Origin: Limisphaerales bacterium
GTDB taxonomy: Bacteria > Verrucomicrobiota > Verrucomicrobiia > Limisphaerales > BOG-1460
Direction of reading: 5' to 3'
Assembly: GCA_003159675.1 (NCBI GenBank)
Contig: PLQC01000054.1
Coordinates: 1-56,549, forward strand
Length of the DNA stretch: 56,549 bases
Shown here: positions 32-44,727 of the stretch, in pieces
How positions within the stretch are numbered: the first letter of the stretch is position 1
Layout: the number at the start of each line of letters is the position of its first letter
Notes under the pieces: model-generated
Database searches by the model: none
What the model saw: only the letters and a program-made list of their open reading frames with translations
Told to the model about the DNA's origin: nothing
Position numbers and translations under genes: made by a program

Positions 32-1510
32 ATGAATGTACTGTTGCTGTACCCGGAATTCCCGGACACATTCTGGAGTTTCAAACACGCCCTGAAGTTC
101 ATCCGGAAGCGAGCTTCATTGCCGCCGCTGGGTCTGTTGACCGTGGCCGCGATGCTCCCGCCGGAATGGACGAAGCGGCTGGTGGATGTGAACGTGCGGA
201 AGCTGCGGGAAAAGGACCTGGCGTGGGCGGAGGTGGTGTTCGTCAGCGGGATGATCGCCCAACGGGACTCGGCGCGCGAGTTGATCGCGCGCTGCCGCGC
301 GGCGGGCAAAACGATCGTGGCGGGTGGGCCGCTGTTCACCCTTGAGCACGAGCAGTTCCCTGAACCTGATTATTTTGTGCTGAACGAGGCCGAGTTGACG
401 CTGCCGGATTTTCTGCGCGACTTCAAACGGGGTGACGCACGGCGCGTGTACGCCTCGTCGGAATTCCCCGACATCCACCGGACGCCGGCGCCGTTGTGGG
501 AGCTGGCGGATTTGCGGCGGTACGCCTCGATGAGCGTGCAGTTCTCTCGCGGCTGCCCGTTCGACTGCGAGTTCTGTAACGTCACCGCGATGTTCGGACA
601 TCGGCCCCGCACCAAGACGACGGCACAGGTGATCGCGGAGTTGGACGGTCTCTTCCGGCTCGGCTGGCGCGGAGCGGTCTTTTTCGTGGACGACAATTTC
701 ATCGGCAACAAACATTTCCTCAGGGAGGAGTTGTTGCCCGCGTTGATCCAGTGGCAGAAAGGGAGGCGCCGCATCCCGTTTTACACCGAGGCGTCCATCA
801 ATCTCGCCGACGATGAGGGCTTGATGCGGTTGATGGTCGAGGCGGGGTTCGACCAGGTATTCGTCGGCATCGAGACGCCCGAGGAGGCGAGTCTGGCCGA
901 GTGCAACAAGCGCCAGAACCGGGGCCGGGACATGATCGCCGACGTGAAGCGCATCCAGCGCGCGGGCTTGCAGGTGCAGGGCGGGTTCATCGTCGGGTTC
1001 GACAGCGACACGCCGGCAATTTTCCAGCGGCAGATCGACTTCATCCAAAAAAGCGGGATTGTCACGGCGATGGTCGGCCTGCTGCAGGCCGTGCCCGGGA
1101 CGAAGCTTTACCAGCGGCTGAAGCGCCAAGGCCGGCTGACCAGCCACACGACCGGCAACAACGTGGATGGGACGACCAACTTCATGCCACGGATGCCTCG
1201 GGCAACGTTGCGGGAGGGGTACAAGAGCCTCATGGGCTACCTGTATGCGCCGGGGCCGTACTACCGGCGGATTCGCACATTCCTGCGCGAGTACCAGCCG
1301 GCGAAGGCCTCCGGTTCATTGAACTGGCGCTATCTCATGGCCTTCGCCCATGCCAACCTTCGCCTGGGTGTTTTCGGTCGCGAACGCTTCCATTATTGGG
1401 GTTTGCTTTTCTGGACGGCGTTCCGGCGCCCCTCCCTCGTCCCGTTGGCGGTCACCCTCTCGATTTACGGCCACCACTTCCGCAAAACCTGCGCGGCGCT
1501 GGAATTGTGA
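32..1510 (+). CDS. B12-binding radical SAM protein (DUF4070 type)
   Basis: The 492-aa protein has an N-terminal cobalamin-binding-like Rossmann region (about residues 1-150, beginning MNVLLLYPEFP) followed by a radical SAM core. The SAM [4Fe-4S] cluster motif is visible as RGCPFDCEFC (CX3CX2C) near residue 175. The C-terminal 150 residues resemble the DUF4070 tail that follows such cores. These enzymes use a 5'-deoxyadenosyl radical, often for methyl transfer or ring chemistry in lipid or secondary metabolism. The substrate cannot be read here. The start is ATG directly after a TTAAGGG purine run, and the gene begins 31 bases into the window, so upstream context is missing. The family is confident; the specific function is unknown. 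Confidence 0.85.
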   Translation: MNVLLLYPEFPDTFWSFKHALKFIRKRASLPPLGLLTVAAMLPPEWTKRLVDVNVRKLREKDLAWAEVVFVSGMIAQRDSARELIARCRAAGKTIVAGGPLFTLEHEQFPEPDYFVLNEAELTLPDFLRDFKRGDARRVYASSEFPDIHRTPAPLWELADLRRYASMSVQFSRGCPFDCEFCNVTAMFGHRPRTKTTAQVIAELDGLFRLGWRGAVFFVDDNFIGNKHFLREELLPALIQWQKGRRRIPFYTEASINLADDEGLMRLMVEAGFDQVFVGIETPEEASLAECNKRQNRGRDMIADVKRIQRAGLQVQGGFIVGFDSDTPAIFQRQIDFIQKSGIVTAMVGLLQAVPGTKLYQRLKRQGRLTSHTTGNNVDGTTNFMPRMPRATLREGYKSLMGYLYAPGPYYRRIRTFLREYQPAKASGSLNWRYLMAFAHANLRLGVFGRERFHYWGLLFWTAFRRPSLVPLAVTLSIYGHHFRKTCAALEL

Positions 1511-4172: not shown

Positions 4173-4301
4173 CAGCACCCGCGTCTCTACTCCGTGGAGC
4201 ATGGCCAAATCGCGGTCCAGCATCACCCGCTGGCGGCGAACCGCGTAAATCAACTGGTCGATCCGTCCGACCGACACAAGAGCTTGCTTCGTTGGCGTCA
4301 T
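4173..4301 (-). pseudogene. ORF6N-domain protein fragment
   Basis: On the minus strand from an ATG at 4301, the first 43 or so codons read like the start of an ORF6N-domain protein: IDQLIYAVRRQRVMLDRDLA, then LHGVETRVL. This is the family pattern of an R-x-Q-x-V-M-L-D-x-D-L-A helix and a Y/H-G-V-E-T-x-x-L turn. Similarity then stops abruptly, and the frame runs into the 3' end of the nucleotidyltransferase gene. The expected continuation (Q-A-V-K-R-N) is absent. ORF6N proteins are phage- or mobile-element-associated DNA-binding proteins. I read this as a 5' remnant of a deleted gene. Confidence 0.6.
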
Positions 4302-4382
4302 CCATTCCTCATCTGTTCCTGGCGGGTGCAGGCGAGAGCGTTTCCAGACCCAGTACCCTGTTCCATTCGCTGGCGTCGCGGT

Positions 4383-4790
4383 TTAACCGATTCTAAACGA
4401 AATCCGTGCAATCAGGTCCCGGCCGAAGCTGTGCTGGAGGCGGTCGAGGATTTCCTTGCGGCGGTAGCGGACGATTTCCGCCAGCCACACGCTGCTGTCC
4501 ACGTTCACGAAGAGCGTTCCCTTGCGCAAACCAACCGGTTGCGCGTGGGCGACAATTGCCGGGTCCAGCAGGTTGTTCCAGACTTTGACGATTTCCGCCT
4601 CGGCGCGGCGGGTGTCGATCCGCAGGTCCGACAGCACGCGCGACAGGACGTCGCCGGCGGGTTTGGCGCGTATTTGGCGCGCAATTTCAGACGCGGAAAG
4701 GTCGATTCCACGCCAGGACGCGAGCGCGCGGCCGCGCGGCGAGAGTTTGGCCGGGCCGAGGGGCGGGATGCGTTTGTGGGGCGGAAACAT
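4383..4790 (-). CDS. DUF721 / DciA-like protein
   Basis: The 135-aa protein has the DUF721 core in its C-terminal two thirds: VWNNLLDPAIVAHAQPVGLR, then GTLFVNVDSSVWLAEIVRYR and a KEILDRLQ helix. DUF721 proteins include DciA, the ancestral loader of the replicative helicase DnaB in bacteria lacking DnaC or DnaI. By that precedent this is a candidate helicase loader, although not all DUF721 proteins have been tested. It follows the GH42 gene on the same strand with a 21-base gap. A GGGAGG sequence lies about 12 bases before its ATG. Confidence 0.75.
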   Translation of the reverse strand: MFPPHKRIPPLGPAKLSPRGRALASWRGIDLSASEIARQIRAKPAGDVLSRVLSDLRIDTRRAEAEIVKVWNNLLDPAIVAHAQPVGLRKGTLFVNVDSSVWLAEIVRYRRKEILDRLQHSFGRDLIARISFRIG

Positions 4791-4811
4791 CTCGCAGGAA
4801 TTCCTCCCGGC

Positions 4812-6878
4812 TCAACCCGCGGTCTTGTCGTCCGAATGTTCGTCGAGCACGAGCACGCCGTGGGGCGGCAGGTCGTAATTTCCGGAGAAATTATTCCCGG
4901 TGAGGAAATCATGCATCGGCTTGTAGAACTGGATGCGCACCGGCGAGTTCTGATGGTTGAGCAGGAAATAAATCTTCGTGCCTTCCTTTTGGCGCATGCT
5001 GACCTGGACGGTATCCGGCACCTTCAGCAGGGGATGCAGGTTGCACATCTGCCGCAGCCAGTCCACGAGATCATAGTAGAACTGTTGGTGGCTTTGCGTG
5101 CCAATGTAAACCGCCTTCCCCAGTCCAAAGGCGTGCATCGTCATCGCCGGGCGGCCGGCGTAGAAATCCTTGGCATAGGTCGCGAGGACCTGGCATTCCT
5201 TCGGCTCGATGATATCGCACCAGAGCCGCGCGGGATGCATGTGGCTGGTCGGAAAGGCGCCTTTGAAGGTGAGATGGTTTTCCTCTCCGGGCGGCAACGG
5301 GTCGAATTCGAGGACTTCGAGGCCGAACAGATCGGTCAGGTCGTGGGGATAACCGTTCACGGGCGCCATGGCGTGTTCGTCCACGAGGCCCGTGTTGAAG
5401 GTGCCCACGACGGTGCCGCCGTTCTGGGCGTAGAGCTTGATCTGGTCGGCCTCGCCGCCCGACAGCAGGTGAAGGGAAGGAGCGAAAACGAGTTTGTATT
5501 TGGACAGGTCTTCGGACGGGCGCGCAAAGTCCACCGAAATGTTACGGTCGTGGAGGGCGGTGTAGAAAAGCTGGATGTGGTCGCGCAGGTTGAAGAACTT
5601 GTTCGGCTGCATGGGCTGCTGCAGCGCCCAATGATTGTCGTGGGTGTAGAGAATGCAGGCCTCGGCGACGACGCGGGTGTCCTTGAGCGCGGGGGCCAGG
5701 AGCTTGATTTCCTCGCCGATCTGGCTGATTTCGCGGAACACGCGGTTATTGGTCTGCAGATGGTGCGGGAGCACGGCGCCAAAGAATTTTTCAAAACCGA
5801 TGCGCGACTGTCGCCAGTGGTAATAGAGGACTCCGGAAGCGCCGCGCGACAGGAGTTGATACGTGAACAGCCGGATCACGCCGGGCCGGACCAGCGAGTT
5901 GACGTCCTGCCAGTTGACCTGCCCGGCCTTTTGTTCGATCACCCAGAAGCCGTAGTCGCCGTCCGGCGTGCGGACGTCGTCCTTCTTCAACGAGCGGAGG
6001 ATGTCGATGTCGCAAGCCAGTTCGGCGGCTTTGCTTTTGATCACGGCGTTGCTTTCGATGGAAACGAAATCGACGATTTTGGCGACATCGAAATGGTCGA
6101 AGCGGCGCAGGAGGGCGCGGAGGTTGGTGGTGAGGGGGATCCCGGGCGTCAACTCGCGCAGCACGTCGGCCTGCATCCGGAGGAAGGCCACGATGGTGTC
6201 GCTGCTGAACCGCGCCCAATCCAGCAGCAGCGCGGGGTTGTGGGCGGTCGGCGCATACATGGGCATGGGGATCTGGTCGAACGCGGAAACCACTTGGCCC
6301 CAGTAGCGCAATCCCAGCTCCTGGTTGAGGCGCTCAACGGTCTCATACTTGAGCTTCAGCCAGTTCTGCCATTCGAGACGCGTATCCTCGTTGAAGGACC
6401 ACTCGGTCTGGTGGCCGCCGATGCCGCTGTCGATCTGCCAGGCGACCAGTTGCTTGTGTTTTCCCAGCGCCTTGGCCATGGCCTGCACGATGCGCTTGGA
6501 ATAATTCCAGTACGTGTCGTTGTTGAAGCAAACGGCATGGCGTGTGCCCTCGCGCCGCGGAATGCCCTTTTCATCGAGCGGGAGGATTTCCGGGTGCTTC
6601 TGGGCAAGCCAGACCGGCGGGGCGGCGGTGGGGGTGGCGAGGACGACTTCGATCCCGGCCTTGCCCATGATATCCATCACGCGTTTCAACCAGTCGAACT
6701 CGAACTTGCCGTCCCTGGGTTCGCAGAGGCCCCAAGAAAGATCGCCGACGCGGACGACATTGATGCCGGCTTTGACCATGAGTTCGGCATCCTGTTGCCA
6801 CTGCGCTTCGGGATTTTCGGAGGTTCCACCATGCGGAAAGACCCAGTGCTCAGGATAGTAATCGACGCCAAAATACAT
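4812..6878 (-). CDS. GH42 beta-galactosidase-family protein with altered acid/base site
   Basis: The 688-aa protein has the three-domain GH42 layout: an N-terminal TIM barrel starting YFGVDYYPEHW, a trimerisation domain with KLVFAPSLHLL, and a small C-terminal beta domain. GH42 enzymes cleave terminal beta-galactosides. The expected nucleophile Glu is present at residue 315 in FWVIEQKAGQVNW. The usual acid/base motif W-Q-x-D/S-N-E is changed: residues 147-156 read AWQIDSGIGG, so Asn-Glu is replaced by Ser151-Gly152 (bases 6423-6428). The protein may be inactive on ordinary galactosides, use another residue, or belong to a divergent subgroup. No signal peptide is seen. The gene leads a probable two-gene unit with the DUF721 gene. 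Confidence 0.85.
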   Translation of the reverse strand: MYFGVDYYPEHWVFPHGGTSENPEAQWQQDAELMVKAGINVVRVGDLSWGLCEPRDGKFEFDWLKRVMDIMGKAGIEVVLATPTAAPPVWLAQKHPEILPLDEKGIPRREGTRHAVCFNNDTYWNYSKRIVQAMAKALGKHKQLVAWQIDSGIGGHQTEWSFNEDTRLEWQNWLKLKYETVERLNQELGLRYWGQVVSAFDQIPMPMYAPTAHNPALLLDWARFSSDTIVAFLRMQADVLRELTPGIPLTTNLRALLRRFDHFDVAKIVDFVSIESNAVIKSKAAELACDIDILRSLKKDDVRTPDGDYGFWVIEQKAGQVNWQDVNSLVRPGVIRLFTYQLLSRGASGVLYYHWRQSRIGFEKFFGAVLPHHLQTNNRVFREISQIGEEIKLLAPALKDTRVVAEACILYTHDNHWALQQPMQPNKFFNLRDHIQLFYTALHDRNISVDFARPSEDLSKYKLVFAPSLHLLSGGEADQIKLYAQNGGTVVGTFNTGLVDEHAMAPVNGYPHDLTDLFGLEVLEFDPLPPGEENHLTFKGAFPTSHMHPARLWCDIIEPKECQVLATYAKDFYAGRPAMTMHAFGLGKAVYIGTQSHQQFYYDLVDWLRQMCNLHPLLKVPDTVQVSMRQKEGTKIYFLLNHQNSPVRIQFYKPMHDFLTGNNFSGNYDLPPHGVLVLDEHSDDKTAG

Positions 6879-7109
6879 AAGCTTATCGCGCGTGGCGCTC
6901 TTTGCTCCACTCTATGAACATGTTCAGATCACTGCAATGGAAAAGTGGAACTCGAATGGACTCGGTGCCCGTCCCGAAGATGTTGCCGACAACGTGGAGG
7001 ATGATCCTGGAAAGGTTGAGCAAAGCCGATCCCCACATGCCTGTGATCGTTTGCAAAGTCATGCCCAGCGACCCGTCCAAATTTTACTCCGATGGTTTCG
7101 GCCGGGGAT

Positions 7110-7711: not shown

Positions 7712-7787
7712 GGGTTGGTAGCTCAGTCGGTAGAGCAGCGGCCTTTTAAGCCGTTGGTCGCGGGTTCGAGTCCCGCCCAACCCACCA
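7712..7787 (+). tRNA. tRNA-Lys (anticodon TTT)
   Basis: A full cloverleaf can be drawn. The acceptor stem is GGGTTGG (7712-7718) with CCAACCC (7777-7783). The D arm is GCTC/GAGC. The anticodon stem is GCGGC/GCCGT with loop CTTTTAA, giving anticodon TTT at 7745-7747. The T arm is GCGGG-TTCGAGT-CCCGC. The discriminator is A and CCA is encoded (7785-7787). It reads AAA/AAG lysine codons. It borders the accessory region to its right. Confidence 0.97.
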
Positions 7788-7950: not shown

Positions 7951-8688
7951 TCAGGACTGAATCTGCGGAGCCGCACCCACCCTATCAATCGGGACCCCTT
8001 GTTCCCTCAACAAAACACGGTACTCGGGTATCTCGCTCCCGGCAGGCAAGGCCCCAAAGAGGTAGTTGCAGAGCCAGTCATCAAAAACCTTCAAGCAGTC
8101 ATTGCTTAGGCGGGTCTTGTCTGGCTTCAGAAACGGCTTCGCTATTGCCTGGATTCGGTCAAATCGGACGCACGATTCGCGCGCGGCACCTTCCTCCTTC
8201 AGATGAAACGCCATCGGGAAACTGTACGCCTTCAGCATCTCAATGAAGGATGCCGGATACTTGGCCGGTTCTTCTTCGCTCCGCAGAGTATAGATTGGAG
8301 CGCAAAGAAAACAGTCTGGGAACCGGGCCGAGATCTTCCTGGTGGCGCGATCACCCAACCCCGCCAACTCAGTGCCGACCGACACGATGACCACTTTCCG
8401 CATTTTGAACTTGAGAGCACCCCAAAGCTCATTCGCCCTCAACTGAATCGCATGAATCGGCAAGTGGCTGAAAAGTGCAGCCTTTGGATTGTGGCAGTCC
8501 GCAGCCGTTCGTTTGTGCAGCGTGATGAACCCCTTTCCGAAATCCACCGCCGGATTCGGGTTTGAGAACTGGATTTCCTGAAACTCCTCCAGCAAGAACG
8601 CGCTGGGCGCCCAGGCGATAGTCCCACGCGAGAACAGAGGCTCATCAGGCCCAAGTGTTTCGAAGTACTTGGAAAGAATCCCTTCCAC
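7951..8688 (-). CDS. unknown 245-aa protein paired with a Panacea-like gene
   Basis: I do not recognise this 245-aa protein. It has no signal peptide or membrane helix. It contains a hydrophobic strand KVVIVSVGTELAG and a Cys-containing segment FPDCFLCAPIY. The start is GTG at 8688, eight bases after the stop of the SocA/Panacea-like gene, so the pair is almost certainly co-transcribed. Base composition looks lower in GC than the flanking chromosome. In Panacea-type toxin-antitoxin pairs the second gene is usually the toxin and is highly variable, so this is a candidate effector by position only. Confidence 0.7.
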   Translation of the reverse strand: MEGILSKYFETLGPDEPLFSRGTIAWAPSAFLLEEFQEIQFSNPNPAVDFGKGFITLHKRTAADCHNPKAALFSHLPIHAIQLRANELWGALKFKMRKVVIVSVGTELAGLGDRATRKISARFPDCFLCAPIYTLRSEEEPAKYPASFIEMLKAYSFPMAFHLKEEGAARESCVRFDRIQAIAKPFLKPDKTRLSNDCLKVFDDWLCNYLFGALPAGSEIPEYRVLLREQGVPIDRVGAAPQIQS

Positions 8689-8696
8689 AGGCAGGC

Positions 8697-9341
8697 CTAG
8701 TCTTCCTCACCCATAGCCAGCAACGCGGACTCGCTGGCAGCGTCAAGACTCACTCGCACCGGCTGGCTTGGACGATAGCCGCCCTTGCGAGCCTGCAACC
8801 GCCGGCGCAGTGCCTCCCCCTTGTCCTTGGAGATAACCGCGGAGAAATCCCGGACCGCATCCACAGGCTGCTTTGGATCCGGAATCACGCTGAAATCCAG
8901 TGGCTGAAATCTCGTCGCACTCAACATAGGTTGAGTTTCGAAATAGACATGGTCCAAGAGCAAAGGAAGCGTTGCCGGTGCCCATCGCTGGTAAACAGAT
9001 TCGACGATTCCCCGGATCGGCGCCGGCCAGCGGCCTGACGCATCAAGGAATCCCTTCGTAACACGATATCCTCGATAGAACTTTCCTTCACTAAATTCGA
9101 ATACCGGCTCCGGTTCAATGCCGTCTGCAGCCTGCGCTGTCTGGACCAAGTCCTCGCAGTAAGGCCCGTAATGATAGAACACCCACGTTGCATCTGTCAG
9201 CGTGCGACGATGCCACCGATAGAACTCATGATCGATGAGGTAAAAAAGTTTGACGAGCTTGGTGGTACCTAAACCCACACGATCCCGAGAGGCGCGACTC
9301 AGCAGGTAATACGCGATTTCCTGGACGAGCGGGGCGTTCAT
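8697..9341 (-). CDS. SocA/Panacea-like (DUF4065-type) protein
   Basis: The 214-aa protein begins with a helical domain resembling the SocA/Panacea (DUF4065) fold: VQEIAYYLLSRA, then TTKLVKLFYLIDHEFY and WVFYHYGPYCEDL. This is the family's T-K-L-x-K-L-x-Y-L-x-D helix and its Y-G-P turn before the next helix. Panacea domains are antitoxin modules that neutralise varied toxins, and SocA is an adaptor that delivers SocB to ClpXP. The C-terminal half (about residues 110-214) is unassigned. It lies between a small ribbon-helix-helix-like ORF and the unknown 245-aa gene on the same strand. The domain call is by eye; the role is inferred. Confidence 0.65.
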   Translation of the reverse strand: MNAPLVQEIAYYLLSRASRDRVGLGTTKLVKLFYLIDHEFYRWHRRTLTDATWVFYHYGPYCEDLVQTAQAADGIEPEPVFEFSEGKFYRGYRVTKGFLDASGRWPAPIRGIVESVYQRWAPATLPLLLDHVYFETQPMLSATRFQPLDFSVIPDPKQPVDAVRDFSAVISKDKGEALRRRLQARKGGYRPSQPVRVSLDAASESALLAMGEED

Positions 9342-9533: not shown

Positions 9534-9652
9534 CCCGAGCGATCCCGGCACCGTCGTCGGTGCCGCGCCCAACCTAAACTCCAGACCTGCACGAAACCAT
9601 CAATCCTTGCGAACTATCCCGACGCGCCGCTGCCCACGATGGCCTCGATAAA

Positions 9653-9934
9653 ATGCGCGGCCACCTGACCACGCCGGCCTATTTGGCAGACATTCAAGCC
9701 CGCCGGAAGCTGGCGGCCAAGGCTGCAGTTTTGGCGGCATACTTGCGCGCAGGCGTGCCGTTTGATTTTGCCTCCGCGCGTTACATCCGCAGCGCCGAAC
9801 AACTGGACTCGTTGCGTGCCGCCACGCTCAACGGCACACCGCTCGCGTGGATCGACGGCGTGAGAGCGGCCAACGACGAGGCCTACTATTATTGGTATCG
9901 CGCCATTCAACTTGGCCAAATCAGACCCACATGA
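9653..9934 (+). CDS. small unknown protein, first gene of overlapping trio
   Basis: The 93-aa ORF is soluble and Ala-rich in its first half (LADIQARRKLAAKAAVLAAY) with a C-terminal aromatic patch (EAYYYWYRAIQLGQ). No family is recognised. Its stop overlaps the next start as ATGA at 9931-9934, which supports expression as part of an operon with the following two ORFs. The 120 bases between it and the leftward operon starting at 9533 would hold divergent promoters. Confidence 0.5.
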   Translation: MRGHLTTPAYLADIQARRKLAAKAAVLAAYLRAGVPFDFASARYIRSAEQLDSLRAATLNGTPLAWIDGVRAANDEAYYYWYRAIQLGQIRPT

Positions 9935-10119
9935 TGATGCTGCCCGTGCCAACAATGCTGATGGTGCTGCTGGTGATGACGATCATCGTGCTGACGCTGT
10001 CGCAGGTCGAGTTCCCGTCCGCGCCAGCCACCGCCACGCCCACCGCCGGCACCGCCGCCCTTGGCCCTTGCTTGGGAGAAAACGAAACTCGTGAAGGGGA
10101 GGCGCGAAACGTGAAATGA
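9931..10119 (+). CDS. tiny single-helix membrane protein
   Basis: The 62-aa ORF starts with MMMLPVPTMLMVLLVMTIIV, one strongly hydrophobic helix, and continues with a low-complexity Ala/Thr/Pro segment and a charged tail. It overlaps the previous gene by ATGA (9931-9934) and the following DUF4209-type gene by ATGA (10116-10119). Such double coupling argues for translation despite the short length and the repetitive ATG/CTG-rich DNA. If real, it would be a small inner-membrane partner of the HEPN-like protein. It could still be a chance frame in low-complexity sequence. Confidence 0.4.
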   Translation: MMMLPVPTMLMVLLVMTIIVLTLSQVEFPSAPATATPTAGTAALGPCLGENETREGEARNVK

Positions 10120-11972
10120 GTGTCCTCGCTCCCAATCCCTTCGACGGTCTGAGCAAGGCGATGCTCGATGAACTTGCGTGGCCGTCACTCATCGCAAGAT
10201 CCGCGAGGAAGACCTGCGGCGCATACCAGGACCTGTTCCGCGACAAGGCCAAGGAATTGGAGGAAGGAGGCCGCTCGGAACTTGCTCGCGCTGCGCGCGC
10301 GCTCCAATGGCTCGCGGCGCTTCAGTTGCGGCTCGACAATCCGCGTCAGCCGTTCCACGGCCTCCATCCGATGCCCGGATTTCCTCTTCCTGGGCCAGAG
10401 GACTTCGGCGAGCCACTTTTGGCCATCTTCGCGGAACTCGCACTGGAAGCGGCCAACCCTGAATTCAAAGCCCGTCTGGCCGACCTTTGCTGGAGCACCC
10501 AGCAAAGACGTCATTTCGCGCTCGTTGCCCCAGCCATCGAAGCCTATCTGGCTTCCGCCGCCACCCTCTACCAGGCTGTTCCCGGCGAGACCCAGATGCA
10601 GTTCTGTCAGCGCTGGGATGCTGCCGCTCTCCGTCTGACGCGTGCACTCCAGCTAGCCAAAATGACGAGCCACAGGCTGGTCGATACGGTGAAAGCAGCC
10701 CTTGACCAGGTCTTCGCCCTCCACATGACCGACGCACCGCACCTGGAACTTGGTTCCCTCCTGGCCAGCTACCAAAATGAGATCGAGGGTGATGCCGCAA
10801 CGCTCATCCAGATTGCCGCAAGGTGCGCCAATCGCGCTGAAGCAGAGAAGGAATGGAACCACTTGCGCCACTATCTCCTCCTCAAGGCAAACTGGGAAAA
10901 GAAGGCCGGTCGGCCAGATCAAGCTGTTAAGACCGAGGAAACTCGCGCTGAAACTTATTTGCACGACGCAAACGCCAGCCCGACGTTCATGGGAAAGGCC
11001 CACTGGGTGGCTAAGGCAATCACCGCGTATCGTGAGGTCTCTCCCAAGTCGCCTCGAATCGAAGCTCTCAAGCGTCTCATGGGCGAGTATCAACGTCAGG
11101 GCATGGCGGAGATGCAAACCATCACCTACCCAATAGGCAATGGGATTGACCCAACCCAGGCCGCAAAGCATGTCTCCGGCAAGGCATTCGCGGAGGCGAT
11201 CCGGCGCCTGGCAGGAGTGCTCCCGCCAATGGAAGAGAAGAGCCTCCACGAGGCCGTCCTCATGCGGTGTAAAGACCCGTTTTTCGCCCTCGTTAGCCAG
11301 AACCTGATTGACTGGGATGGCCGCCTCATCGCCAAGCGCGGCAGTCCCGTCGACGACGACCCAAAAGTGCGCGAGCACGCCATCCGCGCCGAAATGTTCC
11401 GCATGGCCGTCGAGGCGGAAAAGGTTGTCGTCAGCGGTTACATCGAGCCGGCCCGGTTACAACTTCTGTCCGAGCATAACCCAAGCCTCCACGACTTCTA
11501 TCGTATGCTTGTTGACAGTCCTTTCATCCCGCCTGGCCGGGAGTACTTCTTCGCTCGTGGACTTTACGAAGGCTTGAACGGGGACTTCCTGGTCGCCGCC
11601 CACCTGTTGATCCCCCAGTTTGAGCATGCCCTCCGCTTCCATCTGGAAGAGCGCGGTGTTGACGTTACTACTTTCGACGAGGGCGTCCAGGAACTGATGG
11701 ACCTCAACAAGCTGTTTGGCATCCGCCGCGAAAACCTCCTGCAATTGCTCGGGCAGGACCAGGTCTTCGAGCTGGAAGGCCTGCTCATTCGTCGTTACGG
11801 ATCCAACCTCAGGAATTCCCTGGCTCACGGTCTGCTCTGGCGGCCCCAGTTTTTCGACCCGAGCGTCATCTATCTCTGGTGGGTCACCCTGCGCCTCGCC
11901 GTCTACCACTTGTTCCCACACCCGAATTCCGAGCCAGCCATACCCTCAGGCGCGCCGGCCCATCCATCATGA
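10116..11972 (+). CDS. DUF4209-like protein with C-terminal HEPN motif
   Basis: The 618-aa soluble protein is mostly alpha-helical. Its C-terminal part (about residues 480-600) resembles DUF4209: helices around GDFLVAAHLLIPQFEHALRF, then EGLLIRRYGSNLRNSLAHGL. The R-N-x3-H pattern at residues 566-571 (Arg566, His571) is the signature of HEPN ribonuclease domains, found in many toxins and antiviral effectors. The N-terminal 470 residues look like helical repeat or scaffold sequence and may be a sensor or binding part. It is the third gene of an ATGA-coupled trio in an island beside a tRNA. A defence or abortive-infection role is inferred, not shown. Confidence 0.7.
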   Translation: MSVLAPNPFDGLSKAMLDELAWPSLIARSARKTCGAYQDLFRDKAKELEEGGRSELARAARALQWLAALQLRLDNPRQPFHGLHPMPGFPLPGPEDFGEPLLAIFAELALEAANPEFKARLADLCWSTQQRRHFALVAPAIEAYLASAATLYQAVPGETQMQFCQRWDAAALRLTRALQLAKMTSHRLVDTVKAALDQVFALHMTDAPHLELGSLLASYQNEIEGDAATLIQIAARCANRAEAEKEWNHLRHYLLLKANWEKKAGRPDQAVKTEETRAETYLHDANASPTFMGKAHWVAKAITAYREVSPKSPRIEALKRLMGEYQRQGMAEMQTITYPIGNGIDPTQAAKHVSGKAFAEAIRRLAGVLPPMEEKSLHEAVLMRCKDPFFALVSQNLIDWDGRLIAKRGSPVDDDPKVREHAIRAEMFRMAVEAEKVVVSGYIEPARLQLLSEHNPSLHDFYRMLVDSPFIPPGREYFFARGLYEGLNGDFLVAAHLLIPQFEHALRFHLEERGVDVTTFDEGVQELMDLNKLFGIRRENLLQLLGQDQVFELEGLLIRRYGSNLRNSLAHGLLWRPQFFDPSVIYLWWVTLRLAVYHLFPHPNSEPAIPSGAPAHPS

Positions 11973-13561: not shown

Positions 13562-13743
13562 AAGGACCTCACCTTCTCCAGACAGGAATGTTGTGTCGCT
13601 TCCCAGCCACGTTGGCAATTGAAAAGTGAACGGTTTCCCGCTTGCCGCGCCGGACCGGGAACTGCAGATTGCGAGTGGGAAGGTTTAAATCTAACATCGA
13701 AGACGGCGACCTTATTCGCGTGTCTTCCTGCGCGACGGAGCCG

Positions 13744-13832
13744 CTCTAAACCAACCAGAGAGACGCGGAGACGCGGAGACCAACTTGCATTGGGCAGTCT
13801 TCCTCTGTGCCTCCGTGCCTCTGTGGTTTAGA
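13744..13832. repeat. imperfect inverted repeat (CTAAACC...CAGAGG...CGGAG type) in a 465-base intergenic region
   Basis: The left arm (13744-13780) reads CTAAACCAACCAGAGAGACG and onwards with repeated CGGAGA. The right arm (13801-13832), read on the other strand, gives CTAAACCACAGAGGCACGGA and onwards. Such AACCACAGAGGCACGGAGG words are dispersed intergenic repeats in several phyla. The rest of the gap (13562-14026) between the HEAT lipoprotein and pfp shows no gene. Confidence 0.6.
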
Positions 13833-14026
13833 TGAATTGAATCCGCTTTTCTCCCGCGCGACCGGCAACGGACGGCTCGGCAAGCAGGGATTGCCAAAAC
13901 GCGTGGCAAAAAACGTGCATTAATGCTCTTTGACGGCTTTGGATCTCCACGCCAGACTGTGATCGCACGTGAACCGCGGACTGCGCAATAATGGGCTCGG
14001 ACACTCAATTTTAACCGAAAAACGAT

Positions 14027-15337
14027 ATGGCAAACCGAAGCAAGAGAGGAAAACTCGCAATTCTGGTGGGCGGCGGACCCGCCCCGGGCATCAACGGCGT
14101 CATCAGCGCCGCCACCATCGAAGGCATCAACCAGGGATTCCAGGTGGTCGGCTTCCGCGACGGATTCAAGTGGCTCGCCCAGGGCAATACGGATCACGTC
14201 ATGAACCTGACCATCGACGAAGTCACCGGAATCCACCTTCGCGGCGGCTCGATTCTGGGGACGTCGCGGACGAACCCCACCAAATCCGAGTCGAGCATGC
14301 AGAACGTGCTGGAGGGGTTGAAGAAGCTGGGCGTCACCGCGCTCGTGACCATCGGCGGCGACGACACCGGGTTTTCGGCGAGCCAGGTGTATCGCAAAGC
14401 CGCCGGCGCCATTCGCGTGGCGCATGTGCCCAAGACGATCGACAACGACCTGCCATTGCCGGGGTCCACGCCGACGTTCGGTTTTGAGACCGCGCGGCAT
14501 TATGGTGTTTACACGGCGCGCAATCTTGCCGCCGACGCCCGGACGACCTCGCGCTGGTATCTCATCATCAGCATGGGCCGCACCGCGGGGCATCTGGCGC
14601 TGGGCATTGCCAAGGCGGCAGCGGTCACGCTCGCCATCATTCCGGAGGAATTTCGCGGACGACCGGTGACGGTGGAGGAGATTTGCGACATGATCGTCGG
14701 CTCCATCATCAAGCGGCGCGCCAGCGGATCCGAATACGGCGTGGCCGTCCTGGCGGAAGGATTGATCGAGGCCATGGGCGAGAAAGGATTGGCCAGCGCC
14801 ATTCAGGGCGGCCAACTCGAGCGCTATGGAAACATCAAGCGCGACGATCACGGCCATCTGCACCTCGCCGAAATCGAATTCGGCCGCATGATGAAGGATC
14901 TGGTGTCCGCCCGTCTCGAAAAGCTCGGCTTGAAAGTGACGCTGATTGACAAGGACCTGGGCTACGAACTGCGCTGTGCCGACCCCATTCCGTTCGACGC
15001 CGAGTACACGCGCGATCTCGGGTATGCCGCCGTCAAATTCCTGCTTTCCGCGGAGGCCGCCAAATTCGGCGCGATCATCAGTTTCGTGGACGGCAAAATG
15101 GTCCCGTTGGAGTTCGAGAAAATGATTGACCCGCAAACCAACCGGATGCAGGTGCGCCGGGTGAACGTGGATGGGGAAGCCTATGAATGCGCGTGCCATT
15201 ATATGATCCGCCTGGAGCGTTCGGACTTTGAAGACGCACGGCAGCTTGCCGAGCTGGCGAAGGTGGTCTCAATGACGCCGGGGCAGTTCAGCGAGCGCTT
15301 TGGCTATTTGGTTGGCTTGAAGCCGGCGCGCCAATGA
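14027..15337 (+). CDS. pfp: PPi-type 6-phosphofructokinase
   Basis: The 436-aa enzyme interconverts fructose 6-phosphate and fructose 1,6-bisphosphate. The N-terminal LVGGGPAPGINGVI loop, GGDDT at residues 110-114 and PKTIDND at 135-141 are clear. The second Asp of GGDD, where ATP enzymes have Gly, is the classic marker for pyrophosphate as phosphoryl donor. The MGRTAGHLA block completes the active site. PPi use makes the step reversible in glycolysis and gluconeogenesis. The gene stands alone with its own upstream region. Substrate specificity is inferred from the motif. Confidence 0.9.
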   Translation: MANRSKRGKLAILVGGGPAPGINGVISAATIEGINQGFQVVGFRDGFKWLAQGNTDHVMNLTIDEVTGIHLRGGSILGTSRTNPTKSESSMQNVLEGLKKLGVTALVTIGGDDTGFSASQVYRKAAGAIRVAHVPKTIDNDLPLPGSTPTFGFETARHYGVYTARNLAADARTTSRWYLIISMGRTAGHLALGIAKAAAVTLAIIPEEFRGRPVTVEEICDMIVGSIIKRRASGSEYGVAVLAEGLIEAMGEKGLASAIQGGQLERYGNIKRDDHGHLHLAEIEFGRMMKDLVSARLEKLGLKVTLIDKDLGYELRCADPIPFDAEYTRDLGYAAVKFLLSAEAAKFGAIISFVDGKMVPLEFEKMIDPQTNRMQVRRVNVDGEAYECACHYMIRLERSDFEDARQLAELAKVVSMTPGQFSERFGYLVGLKPARQ

Positions 15338-42266: not shown

Positions 42267-43448
42267 TTATCGAGCCCAACTGGGTTGAGAGTTCACACCC
42301 GACGAAACTCGGGCGACATCCTTGACTTGTTTCGTGGGAACGTCAAGCACAGACAGGTGCCCGCCTCCGCTGCGCCGCGAAAACACCAGCGTCCGGGAAT
42401 TGGGCGCCCAGGACGGGTCCTCGCCCGCCACCAGTTCGGTCACTTCTCCGCCTTCCGCCTTCACGACACAAATTTCGAACCCGCCCCTCTGCGCGGTGAA
42501 CGCGATCCATTGGCCGTCCGGCGACCAGTCCGGTTCGGTGGGATTCGGGACTCCTGAGGTGGGAATGCGTTGAGCCGATCCGCCCGACGCGGATATTTTG
42601 CAGAGCGCTCTTCTTTCTTTGATCTTCGTTGCGTAACAAATCCATTCACTATCGGGGGACCAGCAGGGCGACGACTCGTCCTCCGGCGATTTCGTCAGGC
42701 GCTTGATGTTGCTGCCGTCCGCGTCGGCGACGTACAAATCCGTCCAACCGTCCTTGCTGAGGATCATCGCCACTTTGCGGCCGTTGGGCGAGACGGCGGG
42801 GCTGATGCTCGAACCGCCGTACCACGCCACCGTTCGGCGCGCGCCGGTCGAGAGGTCGTGGGAGAAGATGGCGGGGTTGCCGAGCTTGTAGGAATTATAG
42901 TAAACGGCGAACCGGCCCGGGACCCAGCACGGCGCGGCCGCCAGCGAGTTGTCCCGCGTCACAGGTTGCGGGCCGTGACCGTCGAAATCCGCCACGTACA
43001 CCTCGCTCTTCCCGTAGCCGCCCTCGACGACGAAGGCGATTTTCGTCTGCCCGATGCCTTTTCGTCCCAGCGCCTGGACGAAGTCGTCGGCGAACGCATG
43101 GGCCTGCCGCCGCAGCGTCGAGCCGGAGTAGGCTTTCGAAACCAGCGCGTTCTTGTTGAAGTGATCCATCACCCGGCCCTCGAGGTTGCCGTTGTTGCTG
43201 CCGCTGATCAGGTATTGGGCGCCATTCGCGTTGGTAAAGCCGAACCCTTGAACGTACAGGTCGAACTGCAACACCGCGGCCGCTTCGCCCGTGAATCCGC
43301 TCATCGACACCCAGATCGGCGGCGTGTTGCCGGGCTCGGTGTTGCGGCTGAGCCGGATCGCATCGTCGTTCTGAGCCTGAACCAGAGTGGTGAGTCCGAG
43401 CAGGCCTGCAGCGATAAAAAGCCGATTGAAACAATGGTATTTTTTCAT
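42267..43448 (-). CDS. tolB: Tol-Pal system beta-propeller protein TolB
   Basis: The 393-aa periplasmic protein has a signal peptide (LFIAAGLLGLTTLVQA), an N-terminal alpha/beta domain and a C-terminal six-bladed propeller with repeated PDWSPDGQWIAF and PCWSPDSEWICYA blades. It links Pal to the inner-membrane Tol complex. It overlaps the upstream TolA-like gene by ATGA (43445-43448). Confidence 0.9.
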   Translation of the reverse strand: MKKYHCFNRLFIAAGLLGLTTLVQAQNDDAIRLSRNTEPGNTPPIWVSMSGFTGEAAAVLQFDLYVQGFGFTNANGAQYLISGSNNGNLEGRVMDHFNKNALVSKAYSGSTLRRQAHAFADDFVQALGRKGIGQTKIAFVVEGGYGKSEVYVADFDGHGPQPVTRDNSLAAAPCWVPGRFAVYYNSYKLGNPAIFSHDLSTGARRTVAWYGGSSISPAVSPNGRKVAMILSKDGWTDLYVADADGSNIKRLTKSPEDESSPCWSPDSEWICYATKIKERRALCKISASGGSAQRIPTSGVPNPTEPDWSPDGQWIAFTAQRGGFEICVVKAEGGEVTELVAGEDPSWAPNSRTLVFSRRSGGGHLSVLDVPTKQVKDVARVSSGVNSQPSWAR

Positions 43449-44311
43449 CCGAGTAATTTTGCTTTGACGTCGAAATAAATGGTGATGGTGCGTTGATCTT
43501 CCTTGGCATCGTCCGGGAGCGGCGCGGCGTATCTCACCCGGTCCAGGGTGGCTTGAACCGACTGATCCACGACCGGGCTGCCGGAGCGATCGACAATGCG
43601 GGCGGAAATCACGGTGCCGTCCCGGGCAATCGTCACCGTCACCGACGTGGTCGCGGAATCGGCCGTGATGCCGGCCGGCAGGATCCAGGCCGCGTCATAA
43701 ACGCTTTTGACCGCCTGCTTCCAATTTGCATAGGGAAGGCCGCCGGCGCCCGGCCCCTTCAGCTCGATCGTGGTGCCGCCGGACAAGCCGCTCTGGATTC
43801 CCCGCACCGTCTGGCTGATCGCCGCCGCCGTTTGCCGCTTCGTCTCGGTCGCCCGTTCTTTGGCCTCGGCGGCTGCGCGCGCCTTGGACTCCGAGACTTC
43901 GTTCGGCTTGCGTTTAACCAGAGCGGTGCTGACGTCCACTTTGTGTTTGCGATCCTTGACGGGCTCGAGCGCATCGGGATCGACTTTGGTTTCTTTTGGC
44001 GTTTCCTTCACTGTCTCTTTGGGGGCAGGCTCGGGTTTAGTGACCTCCGGTGGCGGGACAGCCTTGGGCGCCGGTGGAGTCGCGGGTGCTGCCGGTTGCG
44101 GGAGCGGCGCCGGAGCCGGCGGTTTCGCGGCCGGATTGCCCCCGCCCCTGACCATGGCATCGACGGTCTTGAACGGAATGAAATCAATCACGGGCAGATT
44201 GTCCGGTTGGTCACGCGACGACAAAAACGCAGGGCCGACGAGCAAAACGAGGAGCAGCAGCAGGTGGAAGGCCGCCGCGGCGAGGACGCATTTTTTCTCG
44301 AGCCGGTTCAT
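43445..44311 (-). CDS. TolA/TonB-like energy transducer
   Basis: The 288-aa protein has one N-terminal membrane helix (AAAAFHLLLLLVLLVGPAFL), a long Pro/Lys/Glu-rich spacer, and a C-terminal TonB/TolA-type domain (SATTSVTVTIARDGTVISAR, then VRYAAPLPD). Position between tolR and tolB marks it as the TolA equivalent. It overlaps tolR (44308-44311) and tolB by ATGA, so all three are co-translated. Confidence 0.85.
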   Translation of the reverse strand: MNRLEKKCVLAAAAFHLLLLLVLLVGPAFLSSRDQPDNLPVIDFIPFKTVDAMVRGGGNPAAKPPAPAPLPQPAAPATPPAPKAVPPPEVTKPEPAPKETVKETPKETKVDPDALEPVKDRKHKVDVSTALVKRKPNEVSESKARAAAEAKERATETKRQTAAAISQTVRGIQSGLSGGTTIELKGPGAGGLPYANWKQAVKSVYDAAWILPAGITADSATTSVTVTIARDGTVISARIVDRSGSPVVDQSVQATLDRVRYAAPLPDDAKEDQRTITIYFDVKAKLLG

Positions 44312-44727
44312 CGCTGATTGGGCGGTTCGGTGCGCAACGAGAACCGCGTGATGCCGTTTCTCTGGCAGAGGTCCACCACCGCGTACAAATCCTTGTCCCG
44401 CCCGTTTTCATCGGCGCGGATGTAAATCACGAGATTGGGGTTGGACCGGAAATCGGCGACCAGCTCGCGTTCCATCTGGGGGATCGAGACGCGGCGCCGG
44501 TCGATCATATAAACGCCTTGCGGGCTGATTTCGACCGTGCGGATGTCGCGTTTCTCGATGGGTTTGTCCGGCCTGCCGCCGGTCGGCAGTTTGAGATTGA
44601 TGCTCTGCTCCAGCAGCGGGGTCGTGATGACGAAGATGATCAGCAACACGAACGCCAGGTCCAGCAGCGGCGTGATGTTGATGTCGCTCAGCGTCACCAG
44701 CGAGTTGCGTTGTGAGAAGCGGCGCAT
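44308..44727 (-). CDS. tolR: ExbD/TolR-type proton-channel subunit
   Basis: The 139-aa protein has one membrane helix with the conserved Asp (DINITPLLDLAFVLLIIFVI) and a periplasmic domain with VYMIDRRRVSIPQMERELVA. It forms the proton-driven motor with TolQ. The gene starts only seven bases after the left end of an inverted-repeat element that separates it from tolQ. Confidence 0.9.
   Translation of the reverse strand: MRRFSQRNSLVTLSDINITPLLDLAFVLLIIFVITTPLLEQSINLKLPTGGRPDKPIEKRDIRTVEISPQGVYMIDRRRVSIPQMERELVADFRSNPNLVIYIRADENGRDKDLYAVVDLCQRNGITRFSLRTEPPNQR

Follow-up and report, generated by a model that had tools for sequence, protein, structure and literature searches.

The DUF4209 proteins, a group that overlaps with C6orf70, were placed among the HEPN proteins in 2013 by Anantharaman et al. 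(PMC3710099). As described in that source, C6orf70 is found in TPR fusions and in operons related to restriction-modification (R-M), and the DUF4209/C6orf70 family reaches the eukaryotes, where the authors predicted a role in RNA degradation at the endoplasmic reticulum (ER). The same source proposed an analogy with PrrC for the R-M-linked HEPN proteins in general. In PADLOC, the system PDC-S39 (PDLC05011 and PDLC05012) is listed among those of P. aeruginosa PAO1 (PMC11878078). PDC-S39 is a candidate by name and, in the open-licence literature, no functional test of a PDC-S39 or DUF4209 protein was found. The letter S in the name is taken to mean single-gene.

The window analysed here is the whole stretch of 56,549 nucleotides from a Limisphaerales bacterium. 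An earlier note had pointed out three frames on its plus strand, namely a 93-aa unknown (9653-9934), a 62-aa membrane peptide (9931-10119) and a 618-aa DUF4209-like protein (10116-11972), and had grouped them as a possible new defence module. The frames exist, as do the ATGA overlaps that link them at 9931-9934 and 10116-10119. The locus is an intact new member of PDC-S39 beside the relic of another defence system and holds no new module; the 618-aa gene is the only part of the trio that is likely functional.

Judged by its sequence, the 618-aa gene is an intact, ordinary member of the already listed candidate family PDC-S39. The protein matches the PADLOC profile PDLC05011 from residue 12 to residue 598 (profile positions 8-581 of 595, E=1.8e-133), the frame has the usual length for the family and the active-site residues are kept. 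The identity with aligned homologues is 17-32%. The N-terminus is a DUF7380 domain (10149-10676, plus strand, residues 12-187; PF24098, E=3.1e-29), in which R120 is invariant in 53/53 aligned proteins, the window protein included. The middle is TPR-like and the C-terminus corresponds to DUF4209, a HEPN domain (11622-11894, plus strand, residues 503-593; PF13910, E=6.3e-9). The DUF4209-like label given earlier was thus borne out by the Pfam profile search, with 36.2 bits against a cut-off of 22.3. No ATPase domain was found in the N-terminus in Pfam up to E 1, the place being taken by DUF7380. The protein also matches two phage families of unlabelled function. The defence candidate cannot be called new, since PDC-S39 is already in PADLOC and the DUF4209-HEPN group was described in 2013 (PMC3710099).

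The predicted RNase active site is the R566-N567-x3-H571 motif (R-N-S-L-A-H, residues 566-571), encoded at 11811-11828 on the plus strand. It has the form of the HEPN Rx4-6H motif with a polar residue after the arginine, and the conservation check upheld it. The 84 distinct homologues, less four without letters at the motif, left 80 with an open frame that reaches the site; R566 and H571 are kept in all 80, and position 567 is N in 74 and H in six. The four comprise two sequences that stop short of the site (L075 and L094), one broken gene in which the match retains the motif past a stop (L081) and one broken gene in which the motif is lost (L078). These alignment counts supersede a plain string search, which found a motif-like string in 82/84 homologues. 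Across the 53 full-length proteins that were aligned, the window protein among them, E503, R507, R566 and H571 never vary, and position 567 holds N in 51 proteins and H in the other two. E503-x3-R507 corresponds to the conserved upstream acidic motif Ex3[KR] of the HEPN superfamily; among all 84 homologues, two have another residue in place of R507 and one has no letter there.

The AlphaFold2 model of the 618-aa protein has a mean pLDDT of 89.4. R566 belongs to helix 565-570, the motif standing at the end of this helix and H571 directly following it, and E503 and R507 lie in a long helix (491-512). The fold search with the whole model gave TPR-type and other helical-repeat proteins among the 50 matches listed, with no match at E 0.001 in the PDB or in the viral library. 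For this reason, the C-terminal domain was folded alone (pLDDT 96.4). The seven best Foldseek matches of this domain in the PDB are all Csm6, a HEPN RNase, at a weak level (lowest E 0.14, with no match reaching 0.001), and the best VIA-align match is Csm6' (Z 7.6, rmsd 3.1, 114 residues), where a Z below about 13 may reflect the common arrangement of helical proteins, a caution that covers the TPR matches as well. The aligned part of Csm6 is presumably its HEPN domain. In sequence searches of the PDB, the matches of the family profile were all weak (best E 0.023) and the C-terminal domain profile had none. The R-N-x3-H motif, its acidic partner, the 2013 assignment and the modelled fold all point the same way, to a putative HEPN RNase. 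From the former reading of the protein, the DUF4209 match, the conserved site and the place in a family of phage-defence candidates are retained, and its membership in a three-gene module is abandoned.

The 93-aa frame is, by homology, what remains of a lost AbiEii toxin gene, a C-terminal tail devoid of the nucleotidyltransferase part, and not an unknown gene. In PADLOC, this frame has a weak match (E 0.0012) to the C-terminus of AbiEii. Among 194 genomes of the phylum, its own included, two others hold matches to the frame, which lie within frames of 384 and 365 aa. One of the two, in L016, is a 369-aa protein that is a full-length AbiEii (PDLC02299, E 3.2e-84; PF08843, E 5.3e-23) preceded by an AbiEi-type gene, and its residues 271-356 are 61% identical to the window translated from 9635. 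A second scoring aligned residues 269-361 with 9629-9910 at 57% identity, and the C-termini of two further AbiEii proteins match the remnant at 55% and 57%. The assignment follows from the fact that only the AbiEii C-terminus is matched and that the homology begins upstream of the ATG of the frame, so that the remnant spans 9629-9934 (plus strand) and encloses the frame. Just upstream of it, in the three-frame translation, the similarity seems to run on for a few residues in another frame. No further AbiEii match occurs in the window, where only residues 269-361 of 369 are covered, and the DNA upstream of the remnant is occupied by a complete gene of the opposite strand (8697-9341). No other AbiEii match of the L016 type was found in the genome, and the search for AbiEi in the window gave nothing significant (best E 0.71).

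The 62-aa frame lies in NTG-rich, low-complexity DNA, and a run of NTG codons gives it its hydrophobic start. It has no family in Pfam, PHROGs, PADLOC or NCBIfam and, among 145 genomes searched, no relative in the 144 others. None was found beside 14 AbiEii genes (best E 0.86). With a codon score of 0.276, where fragments of long frames have a median of 0.30, the 62-aa frame looks like coding DNA. The test is rough, as at least two of the long frames used for training are likely antisense shadows (4194-6917 and 13712-15199). The first of these, on the plus strand, is opposite a real-looking gene at 4812-6878 (minus strand) and the second, on the minus strand, is opposite a real-looking gene at 14027-15337 (plus strand); both are probable shadows in G+C-rich coding DNA. 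These long shadow frames show how little an open frame alone proves in this window. The 62-aa frame is most likely a chance frame or an orphan. Given the coding-like score, which counts against chance, it may be translated; nothing ties it to the 618-aa gene. The membrane peptide of the earlier note is therefore kept as a frame with one hydrophobic stretch and set aside as a partner gene, since it is unconserved.

The ATGA overlaps are at chance level and carry no weight by themselves. When every frame of 60 aa or longer on either strand is counted, there are 24 such couplings in the window and two double ones, the second at 42267-44727 on the minus strand. Among 100 first-order Markov sequences matched to the window in length, the means were 20.5 couplings and 0.97 doubles, with at least one double in 60 sequences; the doubles are thus expected by chance. 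The neighbourhood survey that the earlier note had itself proposed as a refuting test spoke against conserved small ORFs: in 88 loci with homologues of the 618-aa gene (84 distinct), relatives of neither the 93-aa frame (best E 0.79) nor the 62-aa frame (best E 0.30) were found. Conversely, within flanks of 1.5 kb at 14 AbiEii loci (two of the genes partial), nothing related to the 618-aa protein was found (best E 0.067). That the three frames form one defence system with a membrane sensor is hardly credible in view of these results, although the overlaps are real and the middle frame combines a coding-like score with a hydrophobic stretch. The small partners being an AbiEii leftover and an unconserved short frame, nothing points to a new three-gene system. 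As an operon, the trio is ruled out by the AbiEii homology, the lack of conservation and the chance-level ATGA doubles.

The surroundings of the locus include a tRNA-Lys (7712-7787). The note had placed the trio next to this tRNA, which is indeed present; it is 1.9 kb away from the 93-aa frame, with two opposite-strand genes in between. Among the 20 direct-repeat families listed between 7600 and 16000, not one overlaps the tRNA, and the idea of a tRNA-linked island is rejected. The two intervening genes are a SocA/Panacea-type gene (8697-9341, minus strand; PF13274, 25.9 bits against a cut-off of 25.7), which is outside the system of the 618-aa gene, and, 8 nt behind it, the gene of a 245-aa protein (7951-8688, minus strand) with no match in Pfam, PHROGs, PADLOC, NCBIfam or the PDB. 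The Panacea-type protein has a relative in one other of 194 genomes. The layout suggests that 7951-9341 is possibly a Panacea toxin-antitoxin pair with the 245-aa protein as an undescribed cognate toxin. At the start of the window, a 492-aa frame (32-1507, plus strand) has a partial match to the PADLOC candidate PDC-M51A (E 7.9e-11, residues 70-191).

Panacea domains are described as neutralising many different toxins (PMC8832971). This fact, together with the position of the Panacea-type gene only 0.8 kb away on the other strand, bears on the idea that the 618-aa protein is a toxin kept in check, as one half of a toxin-antitoxin pair, by the Panacea-type antitoxin or by another partner. A further point in its favour comes from five cyanobacterial relatives of one clade, in which a PIN-type gene overlaps downstream. 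The idea is nonetheless very unlikely: the Panacea-type gene, which is divergent, is followed by a 245-aa neighbour of its own, and the neighbour scans of the homologues revealed no single partner gene common to all of them. The five cyanobacterial loci (L027, L030, L032, L033 and L077) have a PIN-type gene of 140-146 aa directly downstream with a 4-nt overlap, the PIN-type proteins are above the Pfam cut-off in three of the five, and the five linked HEPN proteins all fall to one side of a single supported branch of the tree. In these bacteria, a two-nuclease system of HEPN and PIN genes is possible.

PDC-S39 is patchily distributed, with members in 13/387 genomes of the phylum (own included). 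The relatives of the 618-aa protein comprise 28 plasmid records, two P2-like phage records and 69 loci from genome contigs; a scan of viral contigs with the 618-aa protein gave no relative. In phage 569R9, the copy sits between the replication gene and, past one small gene, the portal gene. The P2-like group of this phage is known for a defence hotspot (PMC9122126), with which the locus of the copy is not equated here. In the tree of 53 proteins, the window protein is on a long branch, its exact place being unsure, and the nearest proteins by path are cyanobacterial.

Restriction genes were counted at 83 loci by means of local profiles in six frames. An HsdS-like gene lies immediately upstream in 10 loci and a gene for a large MmeI/DrmMI/type IIG-like methylase in eight, as raw counts taken apart from any background rate; 65 loci have no HsdS- or MmeI-like gene in this position, and 24 have a match to any of the four local profiles anywhere in the examined stretch. 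The loci linked to hsdS may be enriched, because the alignment of five proteins with which the 69 genome-contig loci were found held two hsdS-linked ones. Individual Pfam or PADLOC checks cover five of the 18 upstream genes (L072, L005, L059, L047 and L083), and the other 13 are assigned by the local profiles. In L072, the PDC-S39 gene is surrounded by hsdM, hsdS and hsdR, in a type I R-M operon; in L005, it is preceded by hsdS; and in L047 and L083, type IIG enzyme genes are directly upstream. In L059, the adjoining upstream gene matches type IIG and DrmMI models, the one before it has matches to models of both DrmA and DrmD, and DrmA is also matched by the third gene on the downstream side. 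Since genes of DrmA/DrmD type flank it, PDC-S39 appears to be inserted there in a DISARM-type operon. A position directly behind an MmeI/DrmMI-like methylase gene is seen in L052, L058, L059 and L074, of which L059 alone was checked against the libraries. On one plasmid, the downstream gene that the copy overlaps encodes a type III methylase. In a set of 101 neighbour proteins, Pfam identified HsdS (8), RecG-like HATPase_c_4 (7), N6-methylase (5) and Schlafen AlbA_2 (4), and in the PADLOC scan type I models dominate the best 25 of 454 families. In the tree, which held 8/10 HsdS-linked and 6/8 methylase-linked loci, the HsdS and methylase linkages need four changes each and the PIN linkage one.

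Two alternatives are weighed by these neighbourhoods. It is unlikely, to begin with, that the 618-aa protein is a cellular RNA-processing or stress RNase with a role like that proposed for eukaryotic C6orf70. The eukaryotic members and their predicted function at the ER (PMC3710099), as well as the 65/83 loci with no restriction gene of the two types directly upstream, are in its favour, whereas the patchy distribution, the presence on phages and plasmids, the type I R-M operon around the L072 copy and the DISARM-type genes on both sides of the L059 copy speak against it. The other alternative is a stranded, non-functional piece of a former restriction cluster. The AbiEii gene next to it is itself a relic, no R-M gene was found with Pfam and PADLOC among 14 window frames scanned on both sides of the 618-aa gene, and HsdS-type domains occur on four other contigs of the genome. 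Against these observations, the frame is intact at the usual family length with its active-site residues and the same 65/83 relatives likewise stand without such an upstream gene, which makes a stranded piece quite improbable.

The preferred reading, regarded as probable, is that the solo PDC-S39 protein would be a HEPN endoribonuclease under the control of a DUF7380/TPR-like sensor, acting in abortive infection triggered by a phage. The C-terminus would be the metal-independent endoribonuclease, whereas the N-terminal DUF7380 and the TPR-like helices of the middle would act as sensor and brake. In the healthy cell, the protein would be kept inactive. Upon phage infection, the RNase would be released to cut host and/or phage RNA, perhaps tRNA, and the infected cell would stop growing before phage is made. 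The relatives placed behind hsdS or behind a DISARM/type IIG methylase gene probably provide, by analogy with PrrC, a second line for when restriction fails. For the window copy, such a PrrC-like scheme is unsupported because no restriction gene adjoins it. Since it stands alone, this copy would sense the infection either unaided or with the help of a protein whose gene lies elsewhere.

A broader version of this proposal, put forward tentatively, is that PDC-S39 might be a general plug-in suicide RNase, repeatedly inserted behind type I R-M, DISARM, type IIG and type III genes and paired with PIN genes in cyanobacteria. It would be switched on when the host system is blocked, and the solo copies would sense the infection directly. 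If PDC-S39 is indeed a back-up RNase for several restriction systems, the PrrC principle would extend to a widespread family and to DISARM.

The comparison with known systems sets the two parts of the locus apart. The stretch 9629-9934 is homologous to the AbiEii C-terminus (PDLC02299) of the AbiE type IV toxin-antitoxin system; unlike AbiE, the window has the tail only, with neither the nucleotidyltransferase part nor an AbiEi found in it. The 618-aa protein resembles the PrrC/RloC anticodon nucleases (PMC3710099) in having a predicted C-terminal HEPN RNase under a sensor, and some of its relatives are likewise in type I R-M operons. It differs from them in that it lacks an ABC ATPase match, its putative sensor being formed by DUF7380 and TPR-like helices, and in that its gene lies outside any restriction operon in the 14 frames scanned. 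With the C6orf70/DUF4209 HEPN proteins, as described in PMC3710099, it shares the DUF4209 domain, the Rx4H and Ex3R motifs, the TPR-like repeats and, in its relatives, the R-M neighbourhoods, whereas the window copy is bacterial, solo and without adjoining R-M. The closest counterpart is PADLOC PDC-S39 (PDLC05011, PDLC05012), which the protein matches end to end with no difference of layout, despite an identity with aligned homologues of only 17-32%. With the removal of a false three-gene module, this conserved defence candidate gains a clear putative active site and a domain plan.
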